Part shown: positions 3,135 to 4,180 of the stretch, in pieces
Layout of the letters: each line of letters opens with the position of its first letter
Position numbering within the stretch: the stretch's first letter is position 1
Notes under the pieces: model-generated
What the model saw: only the letters and a program-made list of their open reading frames with translations
Told to the model about the DNA's origin: nothing
The model's database searches: none
Source of the DNA: Acidobacteriota bacterium
GTDB lineage: Bacteria; Acidobacteriota; Holophagae; Holophagales; Holophagaceae
Direction: 5' to 3'
NCBI GenBank assembly: GCA_016213735.1
Contig: JACQZU010000022.1
Location: 1-59,170, forward strand
Length of the DNA: 59,170 bases
Program-made: the position numbers and the translations under genes

Positions 3135-3188
3135 ATGGCAGCGAACCCCAGACCTTCGGCCGGAGCCACGGGCGGAGGTCGGTCCTGA
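3135..3188 (+). CDS. Possible 17-residue leader peptide upstream of the condensing enzyme
   Basis: An ATG at 3135 has a strong ribosome-binding site (GGAGG four bases upstream) and opens a 17-codon frame (MAANPRPSAGATGGGRS). Its TGA overlaps the ATG of the next gene by one base (TGATG). This arrangement fits translational coupling: ribosomes ending the short frame restart at 3188. The peptide has no recognisable function and low complexity (Ala, Gly, Pro). It could equally be a chance frame in GC-rich DNA. Confidence 0.3.
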   Translation: MAANPRPSAGATGGGRS

Positions 3189-4180
3189 TGGCGCGCCATG
3201 CGGTCGTCGCCTCCACGGGCTCCTACCTGCCCGACATCCGGGTTTCCAACGACCTGCTGCGCGAGCGCTTCGCCCATCTCCCGGATTTCGTGGACCGCAT
3301 GGAGGCCTCCACGGGGATCCGCTGCCGGTGGCATGCCCCCGAGGAATGGGCCACCTCCGACCTCGCCCTCCCCGCGGCCCGGCAGGCTCTGGAACGGGCC
3401 GGCATCGGGCCGGAGGACCTGGATCTCATCATCCTGGGCACCGATTCCCCCGACTACATCACTCCGGCCACCTCCGTCGTGCTCCAGCACAAGCTGGGGG
3501 CGGTGAACGCCGGGACCTTCGACATCGGGTGCGCCTGCGCCTCCTTCCCCACGGCCGCCGCCACCGCGGCGGGGTGGATCGCCACCAATCCTGGAATCCG
3601 GCGCGTCCTGGTGGTGGGGGTCTACCTGATGCACAAGCTGGCGGATCCGGGGGACCCCATGACCTTCTTCTACGGGGACGGGGCCGGGGCCGCGGTGCTG
3701 ACCGCCTCGGACCGGCCGGGCTTCCTGGGGGCGGCCGCCCAGGCGGGGGGCGCCTTCCACAAGCACTGGGGCATCTATTCCGGGGGGACCTTCGAACCGG
3801 CCACGGTGGACTCCGTCCAGGCGGGGAGGACCCTGGTGAAGATGCTCGAACGCTACCCTCCCGAGATCAACCACGAAGGGTGGCCCCGGCTGGTGCGCAA
3901 GCTGGCGGACGGGTGCGGATTCGGGCTGGGGGACATCGACTTCATCCTCTTCACCCAGGTCCGGAAGCCCTCCATCGAACTGGTCATGGCGGACCTCGGC
4001 CTGCCCATGGAGAAGACCCACACGGTGATGGAGGACTGGGGCTACACCGGCTCGGCCTGCATCCCCATGGCCCTGGACGACGCCCTCGGGAAGGGCCGGA
4101 TCCGACCGGGCGACCGCGTGGTCCTGGTGGGCTCCGGCGTGGGCTACAACCAGGCCGCCTGTGCTTTCCTCATGCCCTGA
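3188..4180 (+). CDS. KASIII-like (FabH/HMG-CoA synthase superfamily) condensing enzyme with altered active site
   Basis: 330 residues, normal for 3-oxoacyl-ACP synthase III. The fold signature is clear: N-terminal STGSYLP, DLDLIILGTDSPDYITP, the nucleophile segment FDIGCACASFPTA with catalytic Cys117, and the C-terminal VLVGSGVGYNQAACAF. FabH uses Cys112, His244 and Asn274. Aligning around conserved blocks puts Thr256 (in FTQVRKPS) and Tyr286 (in DWGYTGSAC) at the His and Asn positions, with the same 30-residue spacing. The decarboxylating pair is therefore missing although the acyl-accepting Cys remains, so it may transfer an acyl group or form a C-C bond without malonyl decarboxylation. It leads an operon with a thiolase, an orphan protein and a dehydrogenase. 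Not the housekeeping FabH, in my view; substrate unknown. Confidence 0.82.
   Translation: MARHAVVASTGSYLPDIRVSNDLLRERFAHLPDFVDRMEASTGIRCRWHAPEEWATSDLALPAARQALERAGIGPEDLDLIILGTDSPDYITPATSVVLQHKLGAVNAGTFDIGCACASFPTAAATAAGWIATNPGIRRVLVVGVYLMHKLADPGDPMTFFYGDGAGAAVLTASDRPGFLGAAAQAGGAFHKHWGIYSGGTFEPATVDSVQAGRTLVKMLERYPPEINHEGWPRLVRKLADGCGFGLGDIDFILFTQVRKPSIELVMADLGLPMEKTHTVMEDWGYTGSACIPMALDDALGKGRIRPGDRVVLVGSGVGYNQAACAFLMP

Follow-up and report, generated by a model that had tools for sequence, protein, structure and literature searches.

The KAS gene and its locus

The window, meaning the whole stretch of 59,170 nucleotides of Acidobacteriota (Holophagaceae) DNA that was analysed, carries a gene for a full-length KASIII-fold protein of 330 amino acids (KAS). 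The gene follows that of a TetR-family regulator and opens a run encoding a thiolase, a 105-aa protein, a short-chain dehydrogenase (SDR), a porin, a substrate-binding protein, two ATPases, two permeases and an alpha/beta hydrolase (Table 1). Beyond this run lie genes for a MaoC-like protein and a CoA-transferase on the opposite strand, followed by a second alpha/beta hydrolase. In many loci the KAS gene has a relative of the TetR-family regulator gene (~59–77% identity) beside it or close by. The upstream motif AAACATACCAACCATTCGGTTT has a single close match in the genome, which is its own site, and is probably the TetR operator.

Table 1. Features of the KAS locus, with their positions in the window.
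Feature	Position	Strand	Evidence
TetR-family regulator gene	2342..2995	+	PF00440
TTGACA, -35-like element (predicted)	3035..3040	+	Upstream alignment, most aligned Holophagaceae loci
Partly palindromic motif AAACATACCAACCATTCGGTTT, putative TetR operator	3067..3088	+	Conserved in most Holophagaceae upstream regions
KASIII-fold enzyme gene, Cys117/Thr256/Tyr286	3188..4180	+	ORF, Pfam, FabH alignment, AF2 model
Asp86 codon, HMG-CoA synthase catalytic Glu position	3443..3445	+	Alignment with three HMG-CoA synthases (L125, L126, L128)
Cys117 codon, nucleophile position	3536..3538	+	Translation, FabH alignment
Thr256 codon, FabH His244 position	3953..3955	+	Translation, FabH alignment
Tyr286 codon, FabH Asn274 position	4043..4045	+	Translation, FabH alignment
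SCP2/archaeal-type thiolase	4217..5458	+	HDCF, GHPVGATG motifs; best solved match acetoacetyl-CoA thiolase 6esq
105-aa protein	5467..5784	+	11 loci, Holophagaceae only, always directly after thiolase
FabG-like short-chain dehydrogenase	5829..6623	+	Pfam/NCBIfam
Porin	6763..8106	+	PF13609
Liv-type periplasmic substrate-binding protein	8290..9468	+	PF13458
Liv-type ABC ATPase	9554..10312	+	Translation; conserved in loci
Liv-type ABC ATPase	10309..11046	+	Translation; conserved in loci
LivH-type permease	11043..12083	+	Translation; conserved in loci
LivM-type permease, start uncertain	12125..13153	+	Translation; conserved in loci
Alpha/beta hydrolase, PcaD-like (ABHa)	13182..13982	+	Family in 51 loci
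MaoC-like hydratase	13979..14440	-	PF01575
Acetyl-CoA hydrolase/transferase family	14490..15806	-	Nearest butyryl-CoA:acetate CoA-transferase
Second alpha/beta hydrolase (ABH2)	16025..16879	+	Family often directly downstream of KAS gene in other Acidobacteriota

In two other genomes, relatives of the thiolase (61–64% identity) adjoin two CoA-transferase-like subunits, which by eye resemble 3-oxoacid CoA-transferase subunits; this arrangement points to acetoacetate-type intermediates. The 105-aa protein has no Pfam or NCBIfam match, and its AF2 model (pLDDT 66.8) is confident for about residues 1–60 only. Its C-terminal half contains a repeated, strongly conserved GPDVxHP motif. A DUF35-like role for this protein was considered but gained no support, with no DUF35 match detectable. 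Elsewhere in the window, inspection by eye has shown a second set of genes for a Liv-type ABC importer, accompanied by one for an AMP-binding ligase (31228–38224, forward strand) and separate from the set in the KAS operon, and HypC-, HypD- and HypE-like hydrogenase maturation genes (52378–57871), which are split by a large sensor-like ORF on the reverse strand (54013–56658).

Catalytic positions and phylogeny

Pfam assigns ACP_syn_III and ACP_syn_III_C to the N and C domains of KAS. FabH decarboxylates malonyl-ACP using its His and Asn. Alignments to E. coli FabH obtained with phmmer make Cys117, Thr256 and Tyr286 of KAS the equivalents of Cys112, His244 and Asn274; the KAS segment FTQVRKPS lies over PHQANLRI of FabH and GYTGSAC over GNTSAAS, which places Thr256 at the His244 position and Tyr286 at the Asn274 position. 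The AF2 model of KAS has a pLDDT of 90.9, and its top matches among solved structures are FabHs, including 4dfe (Z 45.6, rmsd 1.9 Å, 319 residues). This near-full-length superposition makes the Cys/Thr/Tyr placement independent of any single alignment. An earlier, sequence-only reading had claimed that the catalytic Cys is kept and that His and Asn are replaced by Thr256 and Tyr286, and both the alignment and the superposition have confirmed it. HMG-CoA synthases and OleA are absent among the VIA-align matches listed for the model, an absence that proves nothing. PqsC (24% identity, Z 39) matches only distantly, as does CerJ.

A scan for orthologues using one genome per species has returned 80 loci with 59–85% identity, mostly from Acidobacteriota and Chloroflexota, with one from Myxococcota and two from Gammaproteobacteria. 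Cys, Thr and Tyr (C-T-Y) are present in 81/81 orthologues and also in all members of a second tier of relatives with 40–48% identity. A member at 59% identity (H1; CP069395.1, 48521–49525) lies on a cold-seep sequence of 179,736 bases that its record describes as a Chloroflexota plasmid. Bit scores across 149 genomes of the phylum of the window fall into two sets, at least 340 and at most 211, with an empty gap between them. The upper set has Cys/Thr/Tyr and accounts for 21 of the 149 genomes; the seven members of the lower set that were inspected are all Cys/His/Asn FabHs. Within Holophagaceae the gene is accessory: among the 12 same-family genomes listed, 5 have it, including that of the window. 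The same genome encodes two other KASIIIs with Cys-His-Asn. It also encodes a KASIII paralogue (L003, G000:C8, 1492–2418, reverse strand) that has Ser at the nucleophile position and keeps His and Asn, and a small acyl-carrier-protein-like ORF (2418–2654) adjoins this paralogue.

KAS scores below every FabH, HMG-CoA synthase and OleA-like NCBIfam cut-off, including the curated FabH model TIGR00747 (151.5 bits vs. a cut-off of 292). These scores, the two Cys-His-Asn KASIIIs of the genome and the patchy occurrence in the phylum uphold the previous claim that KAS is not the housekeeping FabH. In a maximum-likelihood tree the C-T-Y sequences form a single clade apart from FabH (support 98/98), with PRK06840-like proteins as the sister clade (support 99/97). 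The PRK06840 family ('3-oxoacyl-ACP synthase', NF005308), itself apparently undescribed, has also lost His244 and resembles KAS further in Tyr146 and in an acid at position 86, which is Glu in 6/9 sequences. It differs in that the Asn274 position is occupied by His (GHTG) and in other neighbouring residues, and KAS reaches 149 bits against its cut-off of 315. A literature search for KASIIIs without His/Asn, or for PRK06840, in a catabolic setting has found no relevant paper among those searched. The C-T-Y group is an undescribed clade of KASIII-fold enzymes, and the identity of KAS, its fold and the family-wide loss of the decarboxylating His/Asn pair are firm.

Much of the remaining active site has been rebuilt as well. 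Asp86, Cys117, Tyr146, Met148, Asn228, Trp232, Thr256, Gln257, Tyr286, Cys291 and Ser316 are invariant down to 40% identity. Relative to E. coli FabH, the replacements include Phe87 to Thr92, Leu142 to Met148, Phe157 to Tyr162, Leu189 to Trp194, Ser279 to Cys291 and Phe304 to Ser316. All FabH CoA contacts are replaced (Trp32 by Arg/Lys, Arg36 by Ser, Arg151 by Pro, Asn247 by Arg, and Arg249 by Pro). In FabH, these residues line the acyl pocket and the CoA tunnel. Between Holophagaceae orthologues dN is ~0.11 and dS 0.5–1.2, a ratio of ~1/10 to 1/5. The invariance of Cys/Thr/Tyr and of the other site residues indicates a site under selection and not one in decay. A pseudogene or inactive copy was rejected on the basis of this invariance, the conserved pocket and dN far below dS. 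Overall, KAS and FabH have the fold, the Cys nucleophile and the length in common but differ in the catalytic pair, the CoA contacts and the acyl pocket, with ~24–35% identity between them.

The possibility of a real His/Asn pair elsewhere was checked on the sequence, and none of the His residues is kept in every row of an alignment covering orthologues and second tier (32 rows). The most conserved is His278, which is present in 30/32 rows, 8 residues before Tyr286 and off the FabH catalytic positions. It is the sole candidate for a relocated catalytic His, and it varies.

Gene neighbourhoods in other genomes

Neighbouring genes in other loci were obtained by homology-trained gene calling, and the counts refer to loci, many of them from close relatives, and not to independent events. 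An SDR gene is found near KAS in ~53 loci, mostly directly upstream, and two alpha/beta hydrolase families in 51 and 38 loci. The ABHa family adjoins the KAS gene in second-tier loci, where the core is hydrolase, KAS and AMP-ligase. An acyl-CoA ligase, nearest to long-chain fatty-acid-CoA ligases, is present in 30 loci, and a CoA-transferase in 17 loci and in the window. The ligase and the CoA-transferase replace each other, which suggests that their job is the CoA activation of an acid. Uptake genes in the clusters include those for TonB-type receptors, porins, Liv-type ABC systems and sodium:solute symporters (SSF). KAS differs from FabH also in being an accessory gene inside uptake and degradation clusters. 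PRK06840-like KASIIIs occur in the same clusters as KAS in nine loci (L005, L017, L027, L056, L059, L064, L066, L067, and L076).

A thiolase gene is present in 42 loci, and DUF35 follows it in 12 Chloroflexota loci. The thiolase partner proposed in the sequence-only reading does exist in the window, but it is no general feature: many orthologues have no thiolase nearby. Methylonatrum and Nitrococcus (L080, L082) carry the KAS orthologue without the cluster partners; in both it lies near an ORF of ~1,600 aa that appears NAD-glutamate dehydrogenase-like by eye.

Possible chemistry of the C-T-Y enzymes

The GTDS motif of KAS, with the invariant Asp86, aligns with GSES of HMG-CoA synthases of the archaeal type, drawn from Chloroflexota genomes in which the C-T-Y family occurs too. 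As we read this alignment, GSES would hold the catalytic Glu; Glu82 and Cys114 are the catalytic residues reported for archaeal HMG-CoA synthase (PMC6392133). KAS would accordingly resemble the archaeal-type enzyme in having a Cys and an acid at the same positions, and a thiolase adjoins both in some loci. It differs in that the acid is Asp, with a side chain one carbon shorter than that of Glu, and in that Thr256 aligns with the catalytic His of FHQP. Scores against HMG-CoA synthase models are low (PRK04262, 62.4 vs. a cut-off of 244; TIGR00748, 39.7 vs. 353; TIGR01835, 21.5 vs. 360), and the Chloroflexota genomes with the KAS cluster hold a separate archaeal-type HMG-CoA synthase. With Cys and an acid at these positions and Thr in place of His, non-decarboxylative C–C chemistry would fit better than FabH chemistry.

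The exchange of the decarboxylating pair, taken together with the import and breakdown clusters, probably points to an undescribed kind of carbon-bond chemistry. Our preferred reading, tentative and short of probable, is that KAS may be a catabolic, non-decarboxylative Cys-Asp enzyme that condenses or cleaves its substrate. With the Cys kept and the pocket conserved, Cys117 can reasonably be expected to be acylated. The acyl donor would be a CoA thioester, or a ketone that undergoes C–C cleavage, with Asp86 as general acid/base and the oxyanion hole and Tyr286/Thr256 positioning the second carbonyl. A C–C bond would then form or break with no decarboxylation step, by analogy with HMG-CoA synthase or with a retro-Claisen cleavage. 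In the window, a beta-keto thioester could be exchanged, in either direction, with the acetoacetyl-CoA-type thiolase and the FabG-like dehydrogenase, and the reaction would serve the catabolism of an imported acid. The sequence-only reading had left acyl transfer, ester formation and a non-decarboxylative Claisen reaction side by side. The invariant Asp86 at the HMG-CoA synthase Glu position would favour the last, and neither sequence nor context contains a pointer to ester formation. Several observations stand against the Cys-Asp reading. HMG-CoA synthase also requires its His, which KAS lacks; Asp86 has the shorter side chain; the gene stands outside the cluster in Methylonatrum and Nitrococcus, and thiolase is not adjoining in many loci; and His278 could act as a relocated base. 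A more far-reaching version, which we consider doubtful, is that the family is a separate catalytic class with a Cys-Asp site and Thr/Tyr for His/Asn, breaking rather than making C–C bonds in a widespread, undescribed uptake-and-degradation pathway.

The main rival to the Cys-Asp reading is acyl transfer, in which the acyl group on Cys117 would pass to an oxygen, nitrogen or sulfur nucleophile with no C–C bond formed, as in CerJ, PqsBC and the non-elongating ketosynthases. The latter have typically lost His/Asn and kept Cys, a pattern that KAS matches, and the neighbouring alpha/beta hydrolases could process ester products. Plain acyl transfer, however, needs no invariant acid at the HMG-CoA synthase Glu position, the clusters contain no obvious acceptor-making genes, and the gene context is one of uptake and degradation; we consider this alternative rather unlikely.

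Two further alternatives are improbable. KAS could serve the thiolase as a partner subunit that itself catalyses little or nothing, the part that PhlA plays for PhlC in the Friedel-Crafts acylase PhlACB. PhlA is likewise KASIII/HMG-CoA synthase-like and encoded with a thiolase, as KAS is directly upstream of one in the window; PhlA and archaeal HMG-CoA synthase form thiolase/DUF35 complexes (PMC6392133), and the DUF35 genes of the Chloroflexota loci fit such an assembly. But PhlA retains neither the Cys nor the Glu (PMC6392133), whereas Cys117 and Asp86 are invariant in KAS, and against this alternative stand also the many loci where no thiolase adjoins and the lack of a detectable DUF35 match in the 105-aa protein that follows the thiolase in the window. 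KAS could also still be a decarboxylating condensing enzyme that works through a relocated His278 or through Tyr286. The presence of His278 in most rows would favour this, but the residue is not invariant, it lies 8 residues off the Asn274 position, and the FabH contacts to CoA and ACP are gone.

An OleA-like head-to-head condensing enzyme leading to beta-lactones or olefins is very improbable. The combination of KASIII, hydrolase, AMP-ligase and SDR resembles OleABCD, and OleA belongs to the thiolase superfamily, allows a non-decarboxylative reading and has similar kinds of neighbouring genes. The score against PRK09258, a model that we take to cover OleA, is 92 bits against a cut-off of 285. 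The base of OleA is Glu117 followed by Pro (PMC7064751); by this rule, taken from the paper and applied to the alignment of the KAS family, KAS has Thr92 (Ser in the second tier) before Pro93. An OleABCD system, raised by the gene composition, was rejected on this residue, on the score and on the ligase, which is nearest to long-chain fatty-acid-CoA ligases and is replaced by a CoA-transferase in many loci; the uptake genes of the clusters also speak against it.

If the Cys-Asp reading holds, a strictly conserved, rebuilt site found in several phyla would show further carbon-bond chemistry of the thiolase fold. Databases name the family 'ketoacyl-ACP synthase III' despite its lack of the residues that the FabH mechanism needs. 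The family would offer a way into a degradation pathway of uncultured Acidobacteriota and Chloroflexota, and a relative is present in a cultured host, Geothrix fermentans (L005).
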